DNA of 64,000 bases from Streptomyces sp. Ru72 (GTDB lineage Bacteria > Actinomycetota > Actinomycetes > Streptomycetales > Streptomycetaceae). Positions 40,717-54,516 of this stretch are shown here, piece by piece. Numbering within the stretch: position 1 is the stretch's first letter; each line of letters begins with the position of its first letter. The translations under genes were made by a program, and so were the position numbers. A model generated the notes under the pieces. The model was given only the letters and a program-made list of their open reading frames with translations. It had not been told where the DNA came from and did no database searches. The stretch covers positions 85,708-149,707 of the forward strand of contig NZ_PQSR01000007.1 in the NCBI RefSeq assembly GCF_002920635.1, read 5' to 3'.

Positions 40717-41319
40717 CTACTGCTTGTCGGTGTGACGCGTCCTGATCTGGGTGAGGTCCAGGTCCACGGGGAACGGAACATCCATCTTCATCCGCTCCCG
40801 GAAGATCCCCACGCTGGTGTACGTGCCCGTGGTCGGCTCCAGCTCGAAGGCGTGCACGGCCGCGCGGCCCTTCTCGTTCTCGACGCGCCAGTAGTGGGGG
40901 ATCTTGGCCCGGGCGTACTTCAGGGGCTTGGTCTCGCGGTCCCGGGAGACGGAGTCCTCCGAGACGACCTCGATGGCCAGGACGACGGCCTCTGCCGGGA
41001 AGCGAGTCTGCTCCGGGTCCTCCACCACGTCTCCGTGCACCACCACCACGTCGGGTTCGGGCCGGTTCTGGTTGTCGAGATCGATGGTGAACTCGCGGAA
41101 CACCTCGAGGTCCGCAGGCGCCAGCGACTGGAGCTGCCACTTGAAGAAGTCGATGGCACGCTCGTGAAAGATGGTCTGCGGACTCACGAAGACCAGGCTC
41201 CCGTCGATCAGTTCCGTGTGCGGGGGCAGATTCGGAAGCCGGTCCAGGTCGTCGGCGGTCCAGCCGCCCTCCGGCGGGATCGGCCAGGTGGGCGTGGACG
41301 CCTTCGGTGCGACGCTCAT
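40717..41319 (-). CDS. Uma2-family (DUF820) endonuclease-like protein
   Basis: A 200-residue PD-(D/E)XK-fold protein of the Uma2 family. The nuclease-like core is visible as RPEPDVVVVHG and EAVVLAIEVVSEDSVSRDRETKPLKYA, containing Asp, Glu and Lys positions of the fold, followed by IPHYWRVE. Biological roles are mostly unknown, and Streptomyces carry many paralogues. The ATG at 41319 has GGGAG upstream; an ATG four codons earlier is possible. Convergent to nuoN and divergent from recQ. Confidence 0.85.
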   Translation of the reverse strand: MSVAPKASTPTWPIPPEGGWTADDLDRLPNLPPHTELIDGSLVFVSPQTIFHERAIDFFKWQLQSLAPADLEVFREFTIDLDNQNRPEPDVVVVHGDVVEDPEQTRFPAEAVVLAIEVVSEDSVSRDRETKPLKYARAKIPHYWRVENEKGRAAVHAFELEPTTGTYTSVGIFRERMKMDVPFPVDLDLTQIRTRHTDKQ

Positions 41320-41516
41320 GAGTGCTCCCATGGGACGGAGTCTCGCCGGTCCCTTCAGACTATCGACCGGAAACGGGCAGGTCTCCCACGCACGTGTGAA
41401 CGATGGTCGTGTCCTTGACCGAGGCTGGACAGGGCCCTGTGGATAACTCCGGGACTGTCGGCCGTGGCCCCTATCGTGGACGCAGTGGTCGAAGGACGAC
41501 CGACGGGGGACGGGCG

Positions 41517-43508
<1,992 letters not shown>

Positions 43509-43541
43509 GCCGTCCGGCCATGAGCCGCCCCCCGGCCGGGC

Positions 43542-46310
43542 TCACAGCGCACGTGCCGCGTACGCCCTGACGTCCGCGTCCGAGTCCGCGGTGGCCGTGG
43601 CGAGGGCCGCGCGGGCGTCGTGCGCGTCGCTGTGCCGGGTCAGCGCCAGGACGGCTGCCTTCCGGACGTCCGCATTGGGATCGGCCAGGGCCTTGGCGAG
43701 GGCGGGGACCGCCACCTCGAGGTCGGCGGCGGCGAGCGCGGCGGCGGCACCGGCGCGGACTTGCCAGGCAGAGTCGGACAGGGCGGCCGTGGCGCGGTCG
43801 GCGAGTGGTGGCGGGCAGCCGACGGCGGCGAGTGCGCCGTAGGCGGCCGCACGGACCAGCGCGTCGGGGTCGCCGGTGAGGTCGGCGAGTGCGGACAGGA
43901 CCCCGTCCGCTCCGGCGGTCGCCCCGCCATCGGGGTCTGCCCGGCCCACCGTGCCGAGGGCCTTGGCGAGCGCCACGCGGACCTCGCGGGACGGGTCGGT
44001 GGTCGCCGCGCGCACCAGCGGTGCGACCGCGTCGACGGAGACGAGCGCGCGCACGGCCTCGATACGGACCGTCGTGTCGGAGTCGGCGAGAGCCTCCGCG
44101 AACAGATCGGCGTCGCCCAGCCGCAGCGCCCGCAGGACGTCCAGCGCGGCGGCGCGGACGACGGGGTCGGGCTCGGACAGGGCAGCGGCGAGGCGGTCGC
44201 GGAGGGCCGGCTCGGGTGGCAGCGTCTCCACGAGTTCGCGCAGGGAGGCGGCCGCGGCGGCGCGCACGTCGGCGTCCGTGTCGCTGAGCAGGGCCGCGAG
44301 TGCCGGGCCGGTGCCGTGCGGCAGGGTCTCGGTCAGCACCGTGACGGCGGTGCGGCGGACGGAGGGGTCGGGATCGTCCAAGTAGGGCCGCAGCGCGGTG
44401 AGTTCGGGTTGCTCCTCCGCCAGGGCGAGGAGTTCCAGCAGGCGGGGTGACGTCGGCGCGTCATGGCCGGTGACGGGGCGGACGGCCGCGTCGCCCGCCG
44501 TGGGCCGACCCCGCACCGCGGTGGGCGCCACCTCCCGTGCCCCGGCCGTCGCCACCTGCTCCGGACGCACCTCGCCGAGCGCCCGGGAGGCACCGCCCAC
44601 AGGGGCGAAGCCCTCCACCGGAACCAGATAGGGAGCCACGGGACGTGCCGTGAACTCCATCGCGCCAGAGGGGGACTTGTGCAGATCGAGATGGTGGAAC
44701 CAGGACGCGTCGTCGCGTTCCGGATGGTCGAGGCGGTCGTGGTAGAGGCCCCAGCGGGACTCCGTGCGGGCCAGGGAGGCGCGGGCCGCCATCTCCGCGC
44801 AGTCGCGGATGAAGGTCACCTCCGCGCAACGCATCAGCTCGTGCGGCGTCCGGGCGCCCATGGAGGCGATGTCGGCGCGCATCCGCTCGAACGCCTCCAG
44901 CGCCAGGGACAGCCGGGCGCCGGCCTTCGGCGGGGCCACGTAGTCGTTCACGAAGCGGCGCAGCTTGTACTCGACCTGGGGCTGCGGCGGGCCGTCCGGG
45001 TTGCGCAGCGGGCGGTAGATCAGCTCGTGTGCCTCACGGAGCTGGTCCTGCGGCAACGCGCCCTCGTAGGCCTGGTACTGCGCGGCGTCCTCACCGGCCA
45101 GCTCGCCGAACACGAACGCGCCGATCATGTAGTTGTGCGGCACACAGGCCAGGTCGCCGGCGGCGTACAGGCGGGGGACCGTCGTCCGGGCGTGGTCGTC
45201 GACGCGGACGCCCGAGGCCGAGTGGCCGCCGCACAGGCCGATCTCCGAGATGTGCATCTCCACGTCGTGGGTGCGGTAGTCGTGGCCGCGGCCCGCGTGG
45301 AAGGTGCCGCGCGTCGGGCGTTCCGTCGAGTGCAGGATCGACTCCAGCGCCGAGATCGACTCCTCCGGAAGATGGCTCAGCTTGAGGTACACCGGGCCCC
45401 GGTCCGAGGCCACCTCCTCCGCGAACTCCGCCATCATCTGCCCCGACCAGTAGTCGGAGTCGACGAAGCGTTCGCCGTGCCGGTTGACCTGGTAGCCGCC
45501 GAAGGGGTTGGCGACGTAGGCGCAGGCCGGGCCGTTGTAGTCCTTGATCAGCGGGTTGATCTGGAAGCACTCGATGCCGGTCAGCTCGGCGCCCGCGTGG
45601 TAGGCCATCGCGTAGCCGTCGCCGGCGTTCGTCGGGTTCTCGTAGGTGCCGTACAGGTAGCCGGAGGCGGGCAGACCGAGGCGGCCGCAGGCGCCCGTCG
45701 CCAGGATCACCGCGCCCGCGCGGACCACCACGAACCGGCCCGTACGGGTGTGGAAGCCCGCCGCGCCCACGGCCCGGCCCCCGGACGTCAGCACCCTGAC
45801 CGGCATCACGCGGTTCTCGATCCGGATCCGTTCCCGCATCTCGCGCCGCCGCAGCTGCCGGTACAGGACCTTCTTGACGTCCTTGCCCTCGGGCATCGGC
45901 AGGACGTAGGAGCCGGACCGGTGCACCTGGCGGACCGCGTACTCGCCGTGCTCGTCCTTCTCGAACTTCACCCCGTACGACTCCAGGCGCCTCACCATGG
46001 CGAAGCCGCGGGTCGCGGTCTGCCGGACGGTGGACTGGTCGACGATGCCGTCGTTGGCGCGGGTGATCTCGGCGACGTAGTCGTCGGGCTCGGCGCGGCC
46101 CGGGATGACCGCGTTGTTGACGCCGTCCATTCCCATGGCGAGCGCGCCGGAGTGCCGGACGTGCGCCTTCTCCAGCAGCAGCACGTCCGCGCCGCGCTCG
46201 GCGGCCGTCAGCGCCGCCATGGTGCCGGCCGTGCCGCCGCCGATCACGAGCACGTCGCAGGAGAGTTCTTCCGCATCGGTGAGGGCGGGGATCTCCATGG
46301 GGGTGTCCAC
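43542..46310 (-). CDS. AprA-like FAD oxidoreductase fused to HEAT-repeat tail
   Basis: A 922-residue fusion. Residues 1-560 form a fumarate reductase/AprA-type flavoprotein: FAD glycine motif VIGGGTAGTMAAL near residue 22, then KAHVRHSGALAMGMDGVNNAV, which follows the AprA pattern (RSGAxAxGLxxIN). AHPRLYAAGD-type C-terminal FAD segment (VPRLYAAGDLACVP) also present. Residues from about 620 to the end are eight or nine HEAT repeats with the DxDxxVRxxAxxxL pattern. AprA is the alpha subunit of adenylylsulfate reductase; an AprB-like ferredoxin gene lies in the same operon. GTG at 46310 chosen; ATG at 46298 is possible. Last gene of a six-gene unit; reaction unknown. Confidence 0.85.
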   Translation of the reverse strand: MDTPMEIPALTDAEELSCDVLVIGGGTAGTMAALTAAERGADVLLLEKAHVRHSGALAMGMDGVNNAVIPGRAEPDDYVAEITRANDGIVDQSTVRQTATRGFAMVRRLESYGVKFEKDEHGEYAVRQVHRSGSYVLPMPEGKDVKKVLYRQLRRREMRERIRIENRVMPVRVLTSGGRAVGAAGFHTRTGRFVVVRAGAVILATGACGRLGLPASGYLYGTYENPTNAGDGYAMAYHAGAELTGIECFQINPLIKDYNGPACAYVANPFGGYQVNRHGERFVDSDYWSGQMMAEFAEEVASDRGPVYLKLSHLPEESISALESILHSTERPTRGTFHAGRGHDYRTHDVEMHISEIGLCGGHSASGVRVDDHARTTVPRLYAAGDLACVPHNYMIGAFVFGELAGEDAAQYQAYEGALPQDQLREAHELIYRPLRNPDGPPQPQVEYKLRRFVNDYVAPPKAGARLSLALEAFERMRADIASMGARTPHELMRCAEVTFIRDCAEMAARASLARTESRWGLYHDRLDHPERDDASWFHHLDLHKSPSGAMEFTARPVAPYLVPVEGFAPVGGASRALGEVRPEQVATAGAREVAPTAVRGRPTAGDAAVRPVTGHDAPTSPRLLELLALAEEQPELTALRPYLDDPDPSVRRTAVTVLTETLPHGTGPALAALLSDTDADVRAAAAASLRELVETLPPEPALRDRLAAALSEPDPVVRAAALDVLRALRLGDADLFAEALADSDTTVRIEAVRALVSVDAVAPLVRAATTDPSREVRVALAKALGTVGRADPDGGATAGADGVLSALADLTGDPDALVRAAAYGALAAVGCPPPLADRATAALSDSAWQVRAGAAAALAAADLEVAVPALAKALADPNADVRKAAVLALTRHSDAHDARAALATATADSDADVRAYAARAL

Positions 46311-46330
46311 CAGGGTTGCCTTTCCCGTGT

Positions 46331-47098
46331 TCAGGAACCGAGTGAGGTGAGGACGTCGCGGCGCAGGGCACGCCGGGCCGCATCGTCGTGCGCGGTACGG
46401 TCGCGCGGGCGCGGTACGTCCCGTACGGCGAGGAGCCGGCCCCTGCCGAGCAGCGCCACGCGGTCGCCCAGGTTCAGGGCCTCGTCCACGTCGTGGGTGA
46501 CGAAGACGACGGTCGCGCCCGTGCCGCGCAGCACCTCCACCAGCAGGTCCTGCATGCCGGCGCGGGTCTGGGCGTCGAGGGCGCCGAAGGGTTCGTCCAT
46601 CAGGACGGCGCGCGGGTCGGCCGCGAGGGCGCGCGCCAGTTGTGCGCGCTGGCGCTGCCCCCCGGAGACGCGGTGGGGCAGGTGCCGTGCCTGGTCGGCC
46701 AGTCGGACCCGGTCCAGCCAGGCCTCGGCCTGGGTACGGCGTTGGGCACGCGGTACGCCCTTGATGGCCAGCGGCAGTTCGATGTTCGCCCGCAGGGTGC
46801 GCCAGGGGAGCAGGGCGTCCTCCTGGAAGACCAGCGCACGGTCGGCGGCGGGACCGTTCAGGGGGCGGCCGTCCTGTTCCACCGTCCCGGCCAGCGTGGG
46901 CAGGAGTCCGGCCAGCGTCCGCAGCAGGGTCGACTTGCCGCACCCGGAGGGGCCGACGACGGTGAGGATCTCTCCGGAGGCGATGTCCAGGTCGACGCCC
47001 TCCACGGCGGGCGCGCCCGGGCGGCCGAGCGCGGCTGCCCGCAGGGTGAGCCGGGCACCGGTCCGGGACGCTGTCCGGACGTCAGACGAGCTGGTCAT
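46331..47098 (-). CDS. ABC transporter ATPase, sulfonate/nitrate/taurine type
   Basis: A 255-residue nucleotide-binding subunit of the SsuB/TauB group. Walker A VVGPSGCGKSTLLR, signature VSGGQRQRAQLARAL, Walker B RAVLMDEPFGALD and the H-loop FVTHDVDEAL are all present. Its start overlaps the permease gene by 17 bases. It powers uptake of the ligand bound by the lipoprotein at 47942. Family membership does not fix the substrate. Confidence 0.92.
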   Translation of the reverse strand: MTSSSDVRTASRTGARLTLRAAALGRPGAPAVEGVDLDIASGEILTVVGPSGCGKSTLLRTLAGLLPTLAGTVEQDGRPLNGPAADRALVFQEDALLPWRTLRANIELPLAIKGVPRAQRRTQAEAWLDRVRLADQARHLPHRVSGGQRQRAQLARALAADPRAVLMDEPFGALDAQTRAGMQDLLVEVLRGTGATVVFVTHDVDEALNLGDRVALLGRGRLLAVRDVPRPRDRTAHDDAARRALRRDVLTSLGS

Positions 47099-47945
47099 CG
47101 GGTACCTCCCGCACGGGCTCGGGGCTGCTCGGGACGGGAGCGGGGGCGGTGCCTCGCACCCGGGGGACGCGGTCCGCGGCGGCGTACGACGTCCGGGGCA
47201 GCCAGCGCGTCAGACGGCGGCCCAGCAGTTCCACCGCTGTGGACGTCACCCAGCCCAGTACGCCGATGGTGACCATGCCGACGAAGACGCCCGGGTAGTC
47301 GACGACCGTGTAGTCCTGCCAGGTGCGGTAGCCGACGCCGTACTGCCCGGAGATCATTTCGGCGGAGATCACACAGATCCACGACACGCCGATCCCGACC
47401 GACAGACCGCCGAAGATGCCGGGCAGCGCGCCCGGCAGGACCACCGACCCGAGGACCCGCCACCGGCCGCCGCCCATGGTCCGCACCGCCTCCTCCCACA
47501 CGGGGGTCAGCGCGCGGACCGCGTGCCGGGTGGAGACCAGCACGGGGAAGAAGGCCGCCGTGCAGGTGATGAACACGATGCCCTGCTCGTTGTTGGGGAA
47601 GAGGAGGATGGCCACGGGGACCAGCGCGATCGCCGGGATCGGGCGGACCACCTCCAGCAGCGGGCCGAGCAGGTCCTCGGCGAGGCGGGAGCGGGCCACG
47701 AGCACGCCGGTGGCCACACCCAGGACCGCCGCCAGCAGGAAACCGGTGAGGATACGGGTCAGGCTGTCGGCCAGATCCGTCCAGTAGTCACCGCCGGAAA
47801 GCCGGTCGGCGAACGCGCGGGCCACCTCGGTGACGGTGGGGAACTGCGAGAAACGCAGCCACACGTCGATCTTCAGGCTGGTCAGCAGCTGCCACAGGCC
47901 GAGGGCGGCGGCCAGGGACGCCACCCGCAGCGCGTACCGGCTCAC
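47082..47945 (-). CDS. ABC transporter permease, SsuC/TauC type
   Basis: A 287-residue inner-membrane permease of about six helices. The ATPase-coupling EAA loop is VWEEAVRTMGGGRWRVLGSVVLPGALPG. The GTG start overlaps the solute-binding gene by four bases (GTGA). The last 40 residues form a proline-rich cytoplasmic tail overlapping the ATPase start. Confidence 0.9.
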   Translation of the reverse strand: MSRYALRVASLAAALGLWQLLTSLKIDVWLRFSQFPTVTEVARAFADRLSGGDYWTDLADSLTRILTGFLLAAVLGVATGVLVARSRLAEDLLGPLLEVVRPIPAIALVPVAILLFPNNEQGIVFITCTAAFFPVLVSTRHAVRALTPVWEEAVRTMGGGRWRVLGSVVLPGALPGIFGGLSVGIGVSWICVISAEMISGQYGVGYRTWQDYTVVDYPGVFVGMVTIGVLGWVTSTAVELLGRRLTRWLPRTSYAAADRVPRVRGTAPAPVPSSPEPVREVPDDQLV

Positions 47946-49285
47946 GACGCCCGTCCCAGCGCGTCGGCGTACGTGACGGCACGTGCCCCCGGGTGCGCGC
48001 CGATGTACGCCTGCGCGGTGGCCGGTGCGACGAAGGGGAGCAGACGGCTGCCGTCCGCCACCCACACCGCCTTGTCGGCGAACCACAGGGTGCCGGTGGT
48101 GGCGTCGGGCACGTACGCGGCCCGGATGTCCGAGCGGTGCTGCGCCACGTACTTCAGCAGCTCATCGGGGGCCTTGAAGGTCCGTGTGGTCTCCGCGCCC
48201 TTGGACCACACCTCGCTCGCGGCCGGCGGAGGAGTCGCGGCGAGATCCTTCGTGTACGTCGAGCCGAGTGCCTTCTTCGCGTACTGGTCGTCGACGAAGG
48301 AGTCCACGTCGATGTCGCCGGTCAGCTTGGCGGACTTCAGGATCGACACGTCCTGCTTCAGCGCGGACACCAACTGCGGCTTGACGGCCGGGTCGAAGGT
48401 GGAGATGCCGTGGGCGCCGTTGTAGAGGTAGACGACCTCGGCGGGCAGGCCGGTGGCCTTGGCGACCTTCTCGGCCGCGGTCACGGGGTGGGCGTTCAGG
48501 TAGTCGGTCGCCTCCGCCTGCGCCTTCAGGAAGGCCCCGAGGACGGCCGGGCGCTGCTGGGCGAAGTCCGCGCGCGCGGTGACGCCGTGGAACGTCGGCA
48601 GGTTCAGCTGCGCACCGTCGTACAACGCCTTCGCCTTGCCCTGGTAGGCGAGCAGGCCCGGCCAGGCCACGAACTGGCTCAGCGCGTCCGCGCTGCCCGC
48701 CGCGAGCGCCGAGGCGCCCACCGCGGGCTGCTGGTTGAGCTTCTCGATGCCCTTGTCCGGGTCGATCCCGGCGCGCTGCAGGGCTCGTACGAGGGTGCCG
48801 TCCGCGGCGGAGCCGACGCTCGTGGAGACCTTCCTGCCCTTCAGGTCCCGCAGGGAGGAGAGCTTCGAATCCGGTGCGGTGACGATGGTGTTGAGGCCGC
48901 CGCGCAGGTTGTAGCCGGTGACGGAGACCAGGTGGGTGGGGCGGCCCAGCTGCCTTCCACGGGCCGCGTTGATGAGGAGCGGGAAGTCGCCCATGGAGCC
49001 GATGTCGATCTTCCCGGCGGTCATCTGGGCGGTGATGGGGGCTCCGGTCGCGTAGTCCTGCCAGACGACCTTGTAGGTGTGGCCGTCGTGCAGGGCGCCC
49101 AGCTGCTGCTCGAAGTAGCCCAGGGAGCGCAGAAGGGTGCCCGCCGTGACGGTGTTGATGGTCTTGGACTGGTAGCCGACGGTGACGGTGATCGTGGAGC
49201 CGGTGCCCGCCCGCGCGCTCGCGCCGCACGCGGCGAGCGGGAGGAGGAGGGCGACCGTGGCGAGGGAGACTGCCGTGCGTTTCAT
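47942..49285 (-). CDS. SsuA-like solute-binding lipoprotein fused to NosL-like domain
   Basis: A 447-residue exported lipoprotein. The lipobox LAAC puts the lipidated Cys at residue 20. Residues 30-330 form a type-2 periplasmic-binding domain of the SsuA/TauA group (TVGYQSKTINTVTAGTLLRS; GKIDIGSMGDFPLL; LKGRKVSTSVGSAADG). Residues from about 355 to the end resemble NosL: FKAPDELLKYVAQH, then YVPDATTGTLWFADKAVWV and a closing GARAVTYADAL. NosL is a copper-binding lipoprotein associated with nitrous oxide reductase, and related domains occur elsewhere. This combination in one polypeptide is unusual. The ligand is unknown. Confidence 0.8.
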   Translation of the reverse strand: MKRTAVSLATVALLLPLAACGASARAGTGSTITVTVGYQSKTINTVTAGTLLRSLGYFEQQLGALHDGHTYKVVWQDYATGAPITAQMTAGKIDIGSMGDFPLLINAARGRQLGRPTHLVSVTGYNLRGGLNTIVTAPDSKLSSLRDLKGRKVSTSVGSAADGTLVRALQRAGIDPDKGIEKLNQQPAVGASALAAGSADALSQFVAWPGLLAYQGKAKALYDGAQLNLPTFHGVTARADFAQQRPAVLGAFLKAQAEATDYLNAHPVTAAEKVAKATGLPAEVVYLYNGAHGISTFDPAVKPQLVSALKQDVSILKSAKLTGDIDVDSFVDDQYAKKALGSTYTKDLAATPPPAASEVWSKGAETTRTFKAPDELLKYVAQHRSDIRAAYVPDATTGTLWFADKAVWVADGSRLLPFVAPATAQAYIGAHPGARAVTYADALGRAS

Positions 49286-49300
49286 GGGAGTTCGGGCCTC

Positions 49301-49528
49301 TCAGCGGAGCAGGTAGGGCATGTTGACCGTGACCGCTCCGGTGGGACAGCGGGCCGCGCACGGTCCGCAGTACCAGCACTCGTCGACGTGCATGTACGCC
49401 TTGCCGGTGCTCTCGTCGATGGCGAGGGAGTCCAGCGGGCACATGTCCACGCACAGGGTGCAGCCGTCGATGCACTTCGACTCGTCGATGGTCACGGGCA
49501 CGTCGGCCCGCTGGGGCGCCAAGGGCAT
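49301..49528 (-). CDS. Two-cluster 4Fe-4S ferredoxin, AprB-like
   Basis: A 75-residue protein with eight cluster cysteines: Cys19, 23, 26 and 30 (CxxxCxxCxxxC) and Cys51, 54, 57 and 61 (CxxCxxCxxxC). The spacing in the first set and the phrase AYMHVDECWYCGPC resemble the beta subunit of adenylylsulfate reductase (AYxxxPDMCWECYSC). It lacks the long AprB C-terminal tail that wraps the alpha subunit. It lies 15 bases before the lipoprotein gene in the same operon and is the natural electron partner of the AprA-like protein. Confidence 0.85.
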   Translation of the reverse strand: MPLAPQRADVPVTIDESKCIDGCTLCVDMCPLDSLAIDESTGKAYMHVDECWYCGPCAARCPTGAVTVNMPYLLR

Positions 49529-49580
49529 GGCTGTCTCCAGGAAGGTGCCCGGACAGGGCGGAAGGGGGGGCGAACAGGGG

Positions 49581-50372
49581 TTACAGGGACCGGTGCAGCA
49601 GACCGCTCATGGTGATGCGGTCGCCGCGGAAGCGGATGAACTCCAGGTCGACGGGCCGGCCGTCGGCGAGGTGGGTGAGGCGTTCCAGCATCAGTACGGC
49701 GGCACCGCGGGGGGCCTGGAGCACGGCGGAGGAGTGGGCGTCCGCGTTCACGGCTTCCAGGGTGATCTCGGCGTGGCCGAGGCGTTGGCCGGTGGTGGCT
49801 TCCAGGAGGCGGAAGACGTCGGTGTTCTCCAGGTCGGCGTCGAGGAGGGCGGTGCCGATGTCGAGCAGGATGTAGGTCAGGTCCAGGGAGAGGGGGAGGC
49901 CGTTCAATCTGCGCAGGCGTTCGATGTAGAGGACGTCGGCGCCGGGTTGGACGTGCAGGCGCTCCGCCACGGGGGCGGGTGCGGGAGCGGGGCCCAGAGT
50001 GCGGACCTCGTTGGTGACGCGGCCGTGTTCGTGCAGGGTTTCCGCCAGGCCCATCAGCCGGTCCAGTCCATGAGGGTACTTGCGGGCGGCGACGATCGTG
50101 CCGACTCCCGGCAGCCGGTCCACCAGGCCCTCGGCGCGGAGGAGGTCGAGGGCCTGGCGGACGGTGTTGCGGGAGGCGCCGTAGTCGGTGCCGAGGGTGG
50201 TTTCGTGCGGGAGCGTGCCGTCCGGGAAGCCGCCGGTGAGGATCTGGTGGCGGAGGAGATCGGCAAGCTGCCTGGCCTGGTCCGCACGCAGCCGACGACG
50301 CGTGCGGTGGGCGGCGACGGTGGTCGCGGCGCCCTGACCGGCGTGGTCTCGGATGCGGTCGGTGGGTGGCAT
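49581..50372 (-). CDS. GntR/HutC-family regulator with UTRA domain
   Basis: A 263-residue regulator. The winged helix-turn-helix (LADLLRHQILTGGFPDGTLPHETTLGTDYGASRNTVRQAL) occupies about residues 30-80. The rest is a UTRA ligand domain (VLYIERLRRLNGLPLSLDLTYI). It is the first gene before the ferredoxin-transporter-flavoprotein unit, in the same direction, and probably its ligand-responsive repressor. ATG at 50372 taken; ATG at 50384 is an alternative. Confidence 0.88.
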   Translation of the reverse strand: MPPTDRIRDHAGQGAATTVAAHRTRRRLRADQARQLADLLRHQILTGGFPDGTLPHETTLGTDYGASRNTVRQALDLLRAEGLVDRLPGVGTIVAARKYPHGLDRLMGLAETLHEHGRVTNEVRTLGPAPAPAPVAERLHVQPGADVLYIERLRRLNGLPLSLDLTYILLDIGTALLDADLENTDVFRLLEATTGQRLGHAEITLEAVNADAHSSAVLQAPRGAAVLMLERLTHLADGRPVDLEFIRFRGDRITMSGLLHRSL

Positions 50373-50519
50373 GTTCTGAACCATACCGAGGCGGTAGGGA
50401 AAGCTGTGTTGCCGCATTGTTGCGCCATGTGCCGGGGCGTCACGTATGCCGCTGACCTGGGGTTTCGCTGGGCGATGGGGCAAGATCTGCCACTGCCGGG
50501 TGAGCGGGCGAGGCGGTGG

Positions 50520-51740
50520 CTACGACAGGGTGGTCGGCACCACCCGCCCCGTCACCTCCCCGAGACCCACCCGCGTCCCACCCGGGCCCGGCGCCCACGC
50601 GGTCAGTGTCACCACGTCCCCGTCCTCCAGGAACGTCCGTTTCCCGTCCGGAAGTTCGAGAGGGTCCCGACCGTTCCACGTCAGCTCCAGCAGTGAGCCG
50701 CGTTCGCGCTCCGTCGGGCCGCTCACCGTGCCGGAGCCGTAGAGGTCGCCGGTGCGCAGGGACGCGCCGTTCACCGTCATGTGCGCCAGCTGCTGGGCCG
50801 CCGTCCAGTACATGGTGGAGAACGGCGGCTCGGAGACGACATGGCCGTTGATCGCGACGGAGATGCGCAGGTCGTAGCCCCCCGGTTCCTCCTGTGAGTC
50901 GTCCAGGTACGGCAGCAGCGGATGCGTGCGCTCGGGCGGGGCCACCCGCGCCTCCTCCAGCGCGTCCAGCGGGGTGATCCACGCCGAGACGGACGTGGCG
51001 AACGACTTGCCGAGGAACGGCCCGAGCGGCACGTACTCCCAGGCCTGGATGTCCCGCGCCGACCAGTCGTTGAGCAGGCAGAGCCCGAACACGTGGTCGC
51101 GGAAGGCCGTGAGCGGCACCGGCCGCCCCAGCCGCGACGGCGCGCCCACCACGAAGCCCACCTCCGCCTCGATGTCCAGACGGACCGAGGGCCCGAACAC
51201 CGGTGCCGGGTCGGCGGGCGCCTTGCGCTGTCCCGACGGCCGCACGACATCCGTGCCCGACACCACCACCGTGCCGGACCGGCCGTGGTAGCCGATCGGC
51301 AGATGCTTCCAGTTGGGGGTCAGGGAGTCCGCCGCGTCCGGGCGGAAGATCTGCCCGACGTTTCGGGCGTGGTTCTCGGAGGCGTAGAAGTCGACGTAGT
51401 CCGCGACCTCGAAGGGCAGGTGCAGCGTCACCTCGGAGAGCGGGTGCAGCAGCGGCTCCACGGTCTCCCGGTGCGCGGGCACCGTCACCCACGCCGTCAG
51501 CGCCCGCCGCACATCCGACCAGGTGGTGCGGCCCGCGGCCAGCAGCGGGTTCAGGGACGGACGCGCCAGCAGGGAGGCGTACGGGGAGCCGAGCGCCGTG
51601 GCCGCCGTGCCCGCATCGAGCACGTGGTCGCCCAGGCGGACGCCGACGCGCCGCTCGTCGGAACCGGCGGGGGAGAAGACGCCGTAGGGGAGGTTGTGCG
51701 GACCGAAGGGGTCGCCCTCGGGGACGTCGAAGGGGGGCAT
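50520..51740 (-). CDS. fahA: Fumarylacetoacetase
   Basis: A 406-residue FAH that splits fumarylacetoacetate into fumarate and acetoacetate, the last step of tyrosine and homogentisate breakdown. The N-terminal SH3-like domain (FGPHNLPYGVFSP) is followed by the catalytic domain: DFYASENHARNVG with the catalytic His, the acidic metal ligands in RLDIEAEVGFVVG, LLNDWSARDIQAWEYVPLGPFLGKSF, and the late GSGTVSGP. Length is normal. It is divergent from the ATP-grasp gene; no other tyrosine catabolic gene is in the window. Confidence 0.94.
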   Translation of the reverse strand: MPPFDVPEGDPFGPHNLPYGVFSPAGSDERRVGVRLGDHVLDAGTAATALGSPYASLLARPSLNPLLAAGRTTWSDVRRALTAWVTVPAHRETVEPLLHPLSEVTLHLPFEVADYVDFYASENHARNVGQIFRPDAADSLTPNWKHLPIGYHGRSGTVVVSGTDVVRPSGQRKAPADPAPVFGPSVRLDIEAEVGFVVGAPSRLGRPVPLTAFRDHVFGLCLLNDWSARDIQAWEYVPLGPFLGKSFATSVSAWITPLDALEEARVAPPERTHPLLPYLDDSQEEPGGYDLRISVAINGHVVSEPPFSTMYWTAAQQLAHMTVNGASLRTGDLYGSGTVSGPTERERGSLLELTWNGRDPLELPDGKRTFLEDGDVVTLTAWAPGPGGTRVGLGEVTGRVVPTTLS

Positions 51741-51961: not shown

Positions 51962-53239
51962 GTGGGGGGACCCGTGGCCAGGAGCACCGGCGGTGTGCCG
52001 TTCGACGCGGACCGCGACGTGCCGGGGCTCATCGTGAAGTTCGGCGACTATCCGCTGCACCACGGCGGGGTCGGCGCGATCCGCAGCCTGGGCCGGCTCG
52101 GCATACCGATGTATGCGATCACGGAGGACCGCTACACGCCGGCCGCGGCCTCCCGCTATCTGCGGCGCGCCTTCGTGTGGCCGACCACCGGGACCGAGGA
52201 ACCGGAGCGGCTCGTGGAGGGCCTGCTGCGCGTCGGGCGCCGTATCGGCCGGCCGACGGTCCTCGTTCCGACCGACGAGGAGGCAGCGGTCCTGATCGCG
52301 GAGCACCAGGACGCCCTCGCCGGGCACTTCCTGTTCCCGAAGGTGGACGGGGGACTCCCGCGCCGCCTCGCCAGCAAGCAGGGCCTGCACGAACTGTGCG
52401 TGGAACACGGCATCCCCAGCCCCCGGGCCGCCTTCCCGCAGTCCTACGACGACATCCAGCGCTTCGCCGACAAGGCGCGCTTCCCGCTCGTGGCGAAGAA
52501 TCGCGAGGCGTTCGTGCGTCGCGAACGGCCCGCGGTGGGCGGCACCACGAAGATCGCCACCCGGGAGGGGCTGCTCAGGCTCGCGCGCGACTGGGGCGAG
52601 CGGCCGGGCGTGATCCTCCAGGAGTACCTGCCCCGTGAGCAGGCCGAGGACTGGATCGTGCACGCCTATTTCGACCAGGACTCCACCCCGCTCGCCCTGT
52701 TCACCGGCGTCAAGGTGCGCTCCTGGCCGCCCCACGCGGGCATGACGGCGAACGCGTACGTCGTCGACAACCCGGAACTCGCCGATCTCGCCGCACGTTT
52801 CATCAAACAGATCGGCTTCACCGGCATCGTCGACCTCGACCTGCGCTTCGACCGGCGCGACGAACAGTACAAACTGCTCGACTTCAATCCGCGCATGGGC
52901 GCCCAGTTCCGGCTGTTCGAGAACGAGTCGGGGGTGGACGTCGTCCGCGCCATGCACCTGGACCTGACCGGCCGCACCGTACCGGAGGGGGAACAGCGCG
53001 CGGGCCACCGGTACATCGTGGAGAACATCGACCTGCCCGCCCTGCTCGCCTACCGCCGCAGCGGCTACACGACACCGCACGCACCGGCCCGGGCGAGCGG
53101 TACGGAACTGGCCTGGTTCGCGGGCGACGACCCACTGCCGTTCGTCACGATGCTCGCGCGCTTCGTGCGGCCGGGCGCGAAGCACCTTTATCAGCTGTGG
53201 CGGACCAACCGCCGCGGCAGCACGACCCGTACGTCGTAG
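51962..53239 (+). CDS. ATP-grasp carboxylate-amine ligase-like protein
   Basis: A 425-residue ATP-grasp protein (CarB/PurK-like fold). The N-terminal pre-ATP-grasp domain (GAIRSLGRLGIPMYAITED) is followed by ATP-binding segments FPLVAKNREAF and VILQEYLPRE, and the metal site DLDLRFDRRDEQYKLLDFNPRMGAQ with Asp, Glu and Asn ligands. Such enzymes join a carboxylate to an amine through an acyl-phosphate. The FAD monooxygenase-like gene follows 74 bases later, so the pair may make a small amide. Product unknown. Confidence 0.82.
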   Translation: MGGPVARSTGGVPFDADRDVPGLIVKFGDYPLHHGGVGAIRSLGRLGIPMYAITEDRYTPAAASRYLRRAFVWPTTGTEEPERLVEGLLRVGRRIGRPTVLVPTDEEAAVLIAEHQDALAGHFLFPKVDGGLPRRLASKQGLHELCVEHGIPSPRAAFPQSYDDIQRFADKARFPLVAKNREAFVRRERPAVGGTTKIATREGLLRLARDWGERPGVILQEYLPREQAEDWIVHAYFDQDSTPLALFTGVKVRSWPPHAGMTANAYVVDNPELADLAARFIKQIGFTGIVDLDLRFDRRDEQYKLLDFNPRMGAQFRLFENESGVDVVRAMHLDLTGRTVPEGEQRAGHRYIVENIDLPALLAYRRSGYTTPHAPARASGTELAWFAGDDPLPFVTMLARFVRPGAKHLYQLWRTNRRGSTTRTS

Positions 53240-53313: not shown

Positions 53314-54516
53314 GTGATTCAACCGGTAGCAGTCATCGGTGCCGGGCCTTTCGGCCTGTCCACCGCCGCCCATCTGCGCGGGCGCGGTATCCCGGTCCGC
53401 GTCTTCGGCGAGCCCATGGTCAGCTGGCGTGACAGCATGCCCGCGGGCATGCTCCTGAAGTCCACTCCGGCCGCCTCGAACATCGACGCGCCCCAGCGCG
53501 GCCACACCCTGGCCGACTACTGTGACGCGGCGGGCATCCAGCGGCTGGTGACGGACGAGGACATCATCCCGGTCGAGACGTTCATCGCGTACGGGGAGTG
53601 GTTCCAGCAGAAGCTGGTGCCCGAGCTGGAGCGGGTCCGTGTGGTCTCCGTGGACCGCCGCAAGGGCGGTGGCTTCGATCTCAAGCTGGACTCGGGCGAG
53701 TCGTTCACCGCTCGGGCGGTCGTGGTGGCGACCGGCCTGTCGGGCCTCGCCCACCTCCCGCCGGAGCTGGCCGCCGCGGCAGCCGACGGCCCCACGCCCA
53801 CCGGCCCGGTCTCGCACAGCTCCCAGCACCATGACCTCAGCAGGTTCTCCGGCAAGGAGCTGCTGGTCGTCGGCGCCGGCCAGTCGGCGCTGGAGACGGC
53901 GGCGCTTGCGGCCGAGGCGGGCGCACGGGTGCGCGTGGTGGCGCGCGGGCAGGGCAGGGTCGCTTTCGGCGCACCCCCGTGGGACCAGCCGAAGCTGCGC
54001 CCCGAGTCGCCCTTCGGCCGTGCCTGGTCCCTGTGGGCGCTGAGCTACTACCCCCACCCGTACCGCTTCCTGCCCGCCCAGACCCGCCACTACCTGGTGC
54101 GCCGTGTCCTCGGCCCGCTCGGCGCGTGGTGGCTGCGAGACCGCTTCCAGGAGAACGTGCAGGTGCGTGAGGTCGTCGGCATCCTCGGTGCGTCTGTGGC
54201 GGACGGCAGCCCGGCCCTGACGGTCCGGACCCACACGGGCCGCACGGAGGAGATGACCGCGGACCACGTCATCGCCGCGACCGGCTACCGCGTGGACATC
54301 TCCGCGATGGGCTTCCTGGGACATGAGCTGCGTACGCGCCTGGCGGTGAGCCGGGGCACCCCGAGGCTCGGCGCGGGCTATGTGTCCTCGGTCCCCGGCC
54401 TGTACTTCACGGGCCTGCCGGCGGCGGCCTCCTACGGACCGGTGATGCGGTTCGTCTGTGGCACGGAGTTCGCCTCGCCTCGCCTGGCCAAGCACCTGGC
54501 GACGGCCCACGGCTGA
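53314..54516 (+). CDS. FAD/NAD(P)-binding monooxygenase-like protein
   Basis: A 400-residue two-nucleotide-fold flavoprotein related to flavin monooxygenases and amine N-hydroxylases. The FAD motif VIGAGPFGLST is at residues 7-17, the NAD(P) motif VVGAGQSALET near residue 187, and the ATGY motif (VIAATGYRVDIS) near 320. GTG start after GGGAGG. It probably hydroxylates a small substrate that the ATP-grasp partner makes or uses. The hairpin at 54541 ends the unit. Confidence 0.82.
   Translation: MIQPVAVIGAGPFGLSTAAHLRGRGIPVRVFGEPMVSWRDSMPAGMLLKSTPAASNIDAPQRGHTLADYCDAAGIQRLVTDEDIIPVETFIAYGEWFQQKLVPELERVRVVSVDRRKGGGFDLKLDSGESFTARAVVVATGLSGLAHLPPELAAAAADGPTPTGPVSHSSQHHDLSRFSGKELLVVGAGQSALETAALAAEAGARVRVVARGQGRVAFGAPPWDQPKLRPESPFGRAWSLWALSYYPHPYRFLPAQTRHYLVRRVLGPLGAWWLRDRFQENVQVREVVGILGASVADGSPALTVRTHTGRTEEMTADHVIAATGYRVDISAMGFLGHELRTRLAVSRGTPRLGAGYVSSVPGLYFTGLPAAASYGPVMRFVCGTEFASPRLAKHLATAHG

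Follow-up and report, generated by a model that had tools for sequence, protein, structure and literature searches.

Within the window, by which we mean the whole 64,000-nucleotide stretch of contig NZ_PQSR01000007.1 from Streptomyces sp. Ru72, our reading of positions 43400-50600 revealed six co-directional genes on the minus strand (43542-50384), which encode, in reading order, a GntR/UTRA regulator, a ferredoxin, a substrate-binding lipoprotein, the permease and the ATPase of an ATP-binding cassette (ABC) transporter, and a flavoprotein. The spacings between these genes in the same direction are 52, 15, -4, -17 and 20 bp. A preliminary description of this DNA had taken the six genes for one unit that joins a redox pair resembling AprAB, the adenosine 5'-phosphosulfate (APS) reductase, to an uptake system of the sulfonate/taurine/nitrate kind. 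All six genes lie where it placed them, profile searches confirmed the family that it named for each, and the same order was found among the open reading frames (ORFs) called in 73 of 80 actinobacterial loci, which goes beyond coincidence. As detailed below, the flavoprotein appears to represent a branch within the APS-reductase family that is real, recurs together with an uptake system and has apparently not yet been characterised.

The flavoprotein (922 residues; 43542-46310, with a GTG start and the next ATG at 46298) turned out to be a fusion protein. Residues 1-566 (44613-46310) constitute an AprA-like flavin adenine dinucleotide (FAD) part, as judged by NF006131, FAD_binding_2, Succ_DH_flav_C and the tree, and residues ~622-922 with the stop codon (43542-44447) are HEAT repeats (PF13646, PF02985); the earlier view of a plain AprA-like protein thus holds for the first part but had missed the second. 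The protein scored 1662 bits with NF010374 (cut-off 1196) and 868 bits with NF006131 (cut-off 587), both of which (PRK13800 and PRK08275, respectively) bear the name 'fumarate reductase/succinate dehydrogenase flavoprotein subunit' in NCBIfam. It fell below the cut-offs of the dissimilatory AprA model (TIGR02061, 123.5 vs. 641.75 bits), of the model for 3'-phosphoadenosine 5'-phosphosulfate (PAPS) reductase of the MtPAPSR type (NF005331, 268.8 vs. 557 bits) and of the SdhA, FrdA and NadB families. Residues 1-600 are 93-97% identical to the 120 listed of 6559 proteins found, the organism being Streptomyces wherever one was given. The best relative in the PDB is the alpha subunit of PAPS reductase from Methanothermococcus thermolithotrophicus (8a8o, E 2e-57), with AprA in second place (E 5e-30). 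An AlphaFold model of the core was poor (mean pLDDT 65.1, with 24 close relatives in the alignment), and a Foldseek search with it still ranked 8a8o first, which lends weak support.

In a tree of 26 rows, the flavoprotein family (16 rows) formed a single clade with a support of 100/98. It grouped with AprA/PAPS reductase at 100/100 and stood clear of SdhA, FrdA and NadB, outside the aspartate and fumarate oxidases; with two fewer rows, the support for the family was 95/95. A tree carrying the very long TcuA branch did not resolve the family's fork, and the TcuA row was left out of both later trees on account of that branch. We consider the join with AprA/PAPS reductase likely.

The active site was compared by alignment across 15 family members, with AprA numbered as in A. 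fulgidus. We take Asn74, Trp234, Arg265, Arg317 and His398 to be the APS-site residues of AprA, and His242, Thr254, Arg286, His354 and Arg399 to be the dicarboxylate residues of E. coli SdhA. All 15 members retained Asn74, Lys267, Asp268 and His398 (N65, K256, D257 and H363 in the window), the first three of which are kept as in AprA/PAPS reductase and are missing from the SdhA-type rows. In the same 15 members, Arg265, Arg317 and Trp234, which are retained in two AprA and two PAPS-reductase-type rows, have become Leu254, Met292 and Tyr223, respectively. As for the SdhA residues, His242 and Thr254 are replaced throughout, Arg286 and Arg399 have no counterpart, and only His354 is kept; judging from the tree and these residues, the database name is not borne out. 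Since Arg265, Arg317 and Trp234 are replaced in all 15, the substrate of the flavoprotein is probably not APS. According to PMC10322725, PAPS reductase retains the catalytic residues found in APS reductase, and flavin N5 attacks the sulfur; because this set is only partly kept here, the substrate is probably a new one and the chemistry could differ. An invariant basic stretch directly before His363 (Arg334, His338, Arg341, Arg346) is a candidate anion site.

The ferredoxin (75 residues; 49301-49528), the predicted beta subunit, carries eight cysteines for two [4Fe-4S] clusters, with Trp52 in a CWxC motif. All eight cysteines and this tryptophan are invariant in 17 ferredoxins of the family as well as in the PAPS-reductase-like beta subunit of Ilyobacter, in comparison with which the window ferredoxin is shorter; it ends in a PYLLR tail that is common to the family. 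Trp52 aligns with Trp42 of 8a8o_C, in the same motif, a residue proposed for electron transfer in PMC10322725. With the AprB model TIGR02060, the ferredoxin reached 36.2 vs. 135.65 bits, the CWxC tryptophan being kept. Both motifs quoted in the preliminary description, AprA-like in the flavoprotein and AprB-like in the ferredoxin, are present, and its AprAB-like pair stands as a matter of kinship, by the tree, the PDB ranking and the CWxC tryptophan, but the pair is not AprAB itself, with cut-offs missed and three residues of the APS site replaced. On the Ilyobacter polytropus plasmid (L103:5303-10634), cysC, the PAPS-reductase-like alpha and beta genes, cysD and a gene for a GTP-binding protein stand in a row.

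The HEAT part was modelled as all-helical, with a pLDDT mostly above 90, and is present in all 77 complete flavoprotein ORFs of the actinobacterial loci. In the non-actinobacterial loci, the flavoprotein has ~550-590 residues and HEAT is a separate gene (19/19); a natural unfused version, with flavoprotein and HEAT as two ORFs, also occurs within the window's own order (G025, L110:7378-10019). That HEAT is fused in the surveyed actinobacterial loci and free elsewhere marks it as a partner of the flavoprotein.

In the transporter, the permease (287 residues; 47082-47945) scored above the cut-off of PF00528, and its nearest NCBIfam models, those of SaoP and of nitrate, taurine and sulfonate permeases, were all below theirs. 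The ATPase (255 residues; 46331-47098) was likewise above the cut-off of PF00005, the nearest model being of the taurine type and below cut-off. Residues 29-350 of the lipoprotein (447 residues; 47942-49285) have the SsuA fold according to VIA-align, which covered these residues, and the best fold matches are sulfonate-binding proteins; the score with the SsuA-family model TIGR01728 was 130.6 vs. 163.5 bits. Residues 355-447 (47945-48223) form an extra C-terminal domain with a bbab-bbab arrangement, absent from SsuA and weakly NosL-like. Taken alone, this piece scored 17.8 vs. 24 bits with NosL (PF05573); the NosL match was below cut-off in 3 of 4 proteins, and a weak match was seen in 7 of 27 members.

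The actinobacterial sample comprised the best 80 of at least 588 loci and leans toward close relatives. Five of the seven loci without the full order lie at contig ends (L057, L076, L079, L080, L087); in a sixth (L066), tblastn shows the six-gene order with the GntR gene split over two frames, and in the seventh (L047) there was no GntR match. Presence is patchy, with members in 14 of 41 genomes in the survey of relatives, in 10 of 25 genomes of the genus (its own included) and, above cut-off, in 8 of 296 genomes of the phylum. Beyond the actinobacteria, 54 records of a plasmid collection matched at E <=1e-30, of which 21 (L089-L094, L096-L105, L111-L115) were opened, chosen for spread and annotation and hence non-random. 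L103, not a family member, and L091, which is actinobacterial, were excluded, leaving 19 loci from Betaproteobacteria, rhizobia and other Alphaproteobacteria, Acidithiobacillus, Acinetobacter and cyanobacteria; one of these (L092) came unannotated, and its genes were assigned with ORFs and profiles. The ferredoxin adjoins the flavoprotein in 18 of the 19 (the exception being L090), and the full set of binding protein, permease and ATPase is present within the stretch in 16 (not in L090, L100 and L101), on the opposite strand in L099. The linkage of ferredoxin and transporter to the flavoprotein thus recurs in other genomes. Searches of an open-licence library turned up no paper on the flavoprotein family or the module, and it is in this sense only that the module is 'undescribed', as the preliminary description had it, the protein family being already modelled in NCBIfam (NF010374, NF006131).

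The usual companions of AprAB are absent from the window's genome, as had been noted, with DsrA below cut-off (39 vs. 393 bits) and no match to the ATP sulfurylase model TIGR00339. Counts of neighbouring genes were made over 20 loci, namely the 19 non-actinobacterial ones and L110. TauE/SafE sulfite-exporter genes lie near the module in four of these (L096, L097, L098, L111), with a TSUP gene in a fifth (L102). DUF971 matches occur in 11 loci and Mrp/NBP35 matches in four, and 6 of the 11 DUF971 proteins carry a CxCxxC motif; PMC7980591 reports this motif in the iron-sulfur (Fe-S) scaffold HCF101 and calls the function of DUF971 elusive. FNR (2/20) and FdxA (3/20) matches next to the module suggest electron supply. 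In a genome of the phylum (G272, L118:5829-15443), an APS/PAPS-reductase-type pair (NF005331, 812 bits), with a below-cut-off match to the flavoprotein family, stands beside an ATP sulfurylase, a sulfite-reductase-like gene, a cysteine synthase and an SsuA-family binding protein above its cut-off; the sister group of the flavoprotein family is therefore also found adjoining an SsuA-type transporter, here within a compact sulfur-assimilation cluster. In Nostoc (L090:8031-15440), genes for a HAD hydrolase, a methyltransferase, GNAT and VOC-family proteins are interspersed among those of the module and may give a clue to the chemistry of the imported compound.

We propose, with a probability of roughly 0.4, that the six genes form an operon for sulfur supply, in which a sulfonate-type ABC importer would take up a sulfo compound (R-SO3-) and an AprAB-like pair would reduce it to sulfite. 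The lipoprotein would bind an organosulfur anion, to be imported by the permease and ATPase. Electrons from a cellular ferredoxin system would reach FAD by way of the small ferredoxin, crossing its two [4Fe-4S] clusters and then Trp52, a path like that proposed for PAPS reductase. The sulfur would then come under attack by flavin N5 in a pocket where Asn65 and His363 (AprA Asn74 and His398) are retained but the arginines of the APS site are not; after departure of the R group, sulfite would be set free from the flavin-sulfite adduct and pass to an ordinary sulfite reductase. The HEAT part may act as a docking or Fe-S loading scaffold, because DUF971 or Mrp/NBP35 genes frequently accompany the stand-alone HEAT gene, and the GntR/UTRA protein would be an effector-responsive repressor. 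Support for this proposal comes from the join with AprA/PAPS reductase, the match to 8a8o, the CWxC tryptophan and the cysteines, the kept Asn74, Lys267 and Asp268, the SsuA fold, the transporter linkage, the neighbouring sulfite-exporter, TSUP, DUF971, Mrp/NBP35, FNR and FdxA genes, and the sulfur-assimilation genes around the sister-type pair in L118. More tentatively, the APS-reductase family might have, in aerobic soil bacteria and cyanobacteria, a third branch with a function of its own, wherein a HEAT-scaffolded flavin/Fe-S pair would cleave organosulfur brought in from outside (a sulfonate, a sulfate ester or an S-sulfo compound) reductively and directly to sulfite, with neither oxygen nor ATP-costly sulfate activation.

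Several points weigh against the reduction of a sulfo compound. Cleavage of the C-S bond in plain sulfonates is difficult with flavin-N5 chemistry, sulfate esters or S-sulfo compounds being easier, and the loss of Arg265 and Arg317 may mean a different chemistry. His398 is also retained in SdhA, FrdA and NadB and hence is not specific, and the tree program flags the meeting of long branches in the flavoprotein tree as risky. The SsuA fold is found as well in proteins binding nitrate, bicarbonate, thiamine precursors and pyrroloquinoline quinone (PQQ). As to the neighbours, the TauE loci come from three cyanobacteria and one betaproteobacterium and thus represent few independent cases, and at the limits used, at which distant homologues could be missed, the 80 actinobacterial loci and the window yielded no TauE, DUF971 or Mrp matches.

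The breadth of the SsuA fold, together with the replacement of the AprA arginines and tryptophan, would also accord with an importer and redox pair acting on a sulfur-free anion (a nitro compound, an N-oxide or similar), with the AprA-like fold turned to a different two-electron reaction; the presence of amidase, GNAT and HAD genes instead of sulfur genes in the loci of Nostoc and Methylocystis points the same way. We regard this as rather unlikely, given that the sister clade is sulfur-specific in the rows of known function, that the best fold matches of the lipoprotein are sulfonate-binding proteins and that sulfite exporters adjoin the module in some loci. The pair might instead run in reverse, joining sulfite, or else a sulfur intermediate, oxidatively to an acceptor and passing electrons to ferredoxin, as dissimilatory AprAB is reversible according to PMC10322725. 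This we find improbable, because the operon is one for uptake and the window shows no exporter next to it, the FNR and FdxA genes that accompany some loci point to a supply of electrons, and the nearest relative, PAPS reductase, is described in the same paper as having no measurable reverse reaction.

Our first hypothesis, based on the literature description, was that the flavoprotein is AsfA, in an AsfAB-type electron chain feeding an arylsulfonate oxygenase: a passage of PMC4267179 describes the asf cluster with a binding protein, a transporter and a reductase/ferredoxin pair, and one of PMC2864759 places asfRAB on the second chromosome of C. metallidurans CH34. The whole record of that replicon (NC_007974.2) contained no member of the flavoprotein family (best 83.8 bits vs. 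a cut-off of 587), and the hypothesis was dropped; AsfA is therefore a different protein, the AsfA gene itself not being pinpointed on the record. A TcuA-like ORF at ~793 kb of CH34 (L095:3508-5067) was guessed to be AsfA from gene density and was not confirmed; the record holds two other weak flavoproteins, and none of the three belongs to the family. With a GntR rather than a LysR regulator and no oxygenase in the conserved gene set, such a chain is decidedly improbable in the window. Very little credence can be given to a true APS or PAPS reductase for assimilation, which phylogeny would favor, in view of the missed AprA and PAPS-reductase-type cut-offs, the replacement of APS-site residues in 15 of 15 members and the failure to find a TIGR00339-type ATP sulfurylase in the genome. 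An ordinary fumarate reductase, succinate dehydrogenase or aspartate oxidase, as the database name and the shared FAD fold would have it, is scarcely tenable with the separation at 100/100 in the tree, only His354 of SdhA kept and the family cut-offs missed.

Organic forms make up about 95% of the sulfur in soil. As the way in which bacteria use sulfonates, PMC4267179 names a monooxygenase system. If the proposed reduction to sulfite is true, aerobes would possess a reductive route in the shape of an APS-reductase-like pair that is linked to uptake and occurs in actinobacteria, proteobacteria and cyanobacteria; it would also show how the APS-reductase fold gained new substrates, and a misleading database name would be corrected. 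A bacterial HEAT-repeat protein would further gain a concrete, testable partner in an Fe-S enzyme near which genes for Fe-S carriers are found.

The regulator (267 residues; 49581-50384, alternative start at 50372), above the cut-offs of PF07702 (UTRA) and PF00392 (GntR), opens the gene set in 73 of the 80 loci. A narrow scan of the window and 12 of 77 relatives found no operator palindrome upstream of it, a simple-consensus scan detected no promoter or terminator, and PADLOC returned HEAT-type and ATPase-type matches only, which we took as unrelated. On one side of the unit, a gene for a putative endonuclease of the Uma2 family (40717-41559) overlaps the start of an opposite-strand RecQ-type helicase gene (41403-43508). 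On the other, a 425-residue ORF (51962-53239), with no Pfam match at E <=1e-8 and ATP-grasp-like by eye only, adjoins a predicted FAD/nicotinamide adenine dinucleotide (NAD) oxidoreductase gene (53314-54516).

Compared with known systems, the unit resembles the SsuABC/TauABC importers in having all three transporter parts of the general type and the SsuA fold, but its parts fall below the curated cut-offs, its binding protein has an additional C-terminal domain, and the conserved six include no SsuD/TauD gene. The asfRABC arylsulfonate cluster is similar by description, with a flavin/ferredoxin reductase, a binding protein and a transporter, but has a LysR regulator where the window unit has GntR. 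AprAB (1jnr, 3gyx) is a heterodimer of the same type whose Asn74, Lys267, Asp268 and His398 are kept here; unlike AprAB, the window pair misses the TIGR02061 and TIGR02060 cut-offs and has its APS-site residues replaced, and the Sat/Dsr context was not found in the window's genome. The PAPS reductase of M. thermolithotrophicus (8a8o) and its NF005331 relatives differ in that identity is ~28%, the equivalents of Arg265, Arg317 and Trp234 are replaced here, the NF005331 cut-off is missed and a HEAT part is added; with an FAD alpha subunit and a small 2[4Fe-4S] beta subunit bearing the CWxC tryptophan, this enzyme is nonetheless the closest solved relative of the pair.

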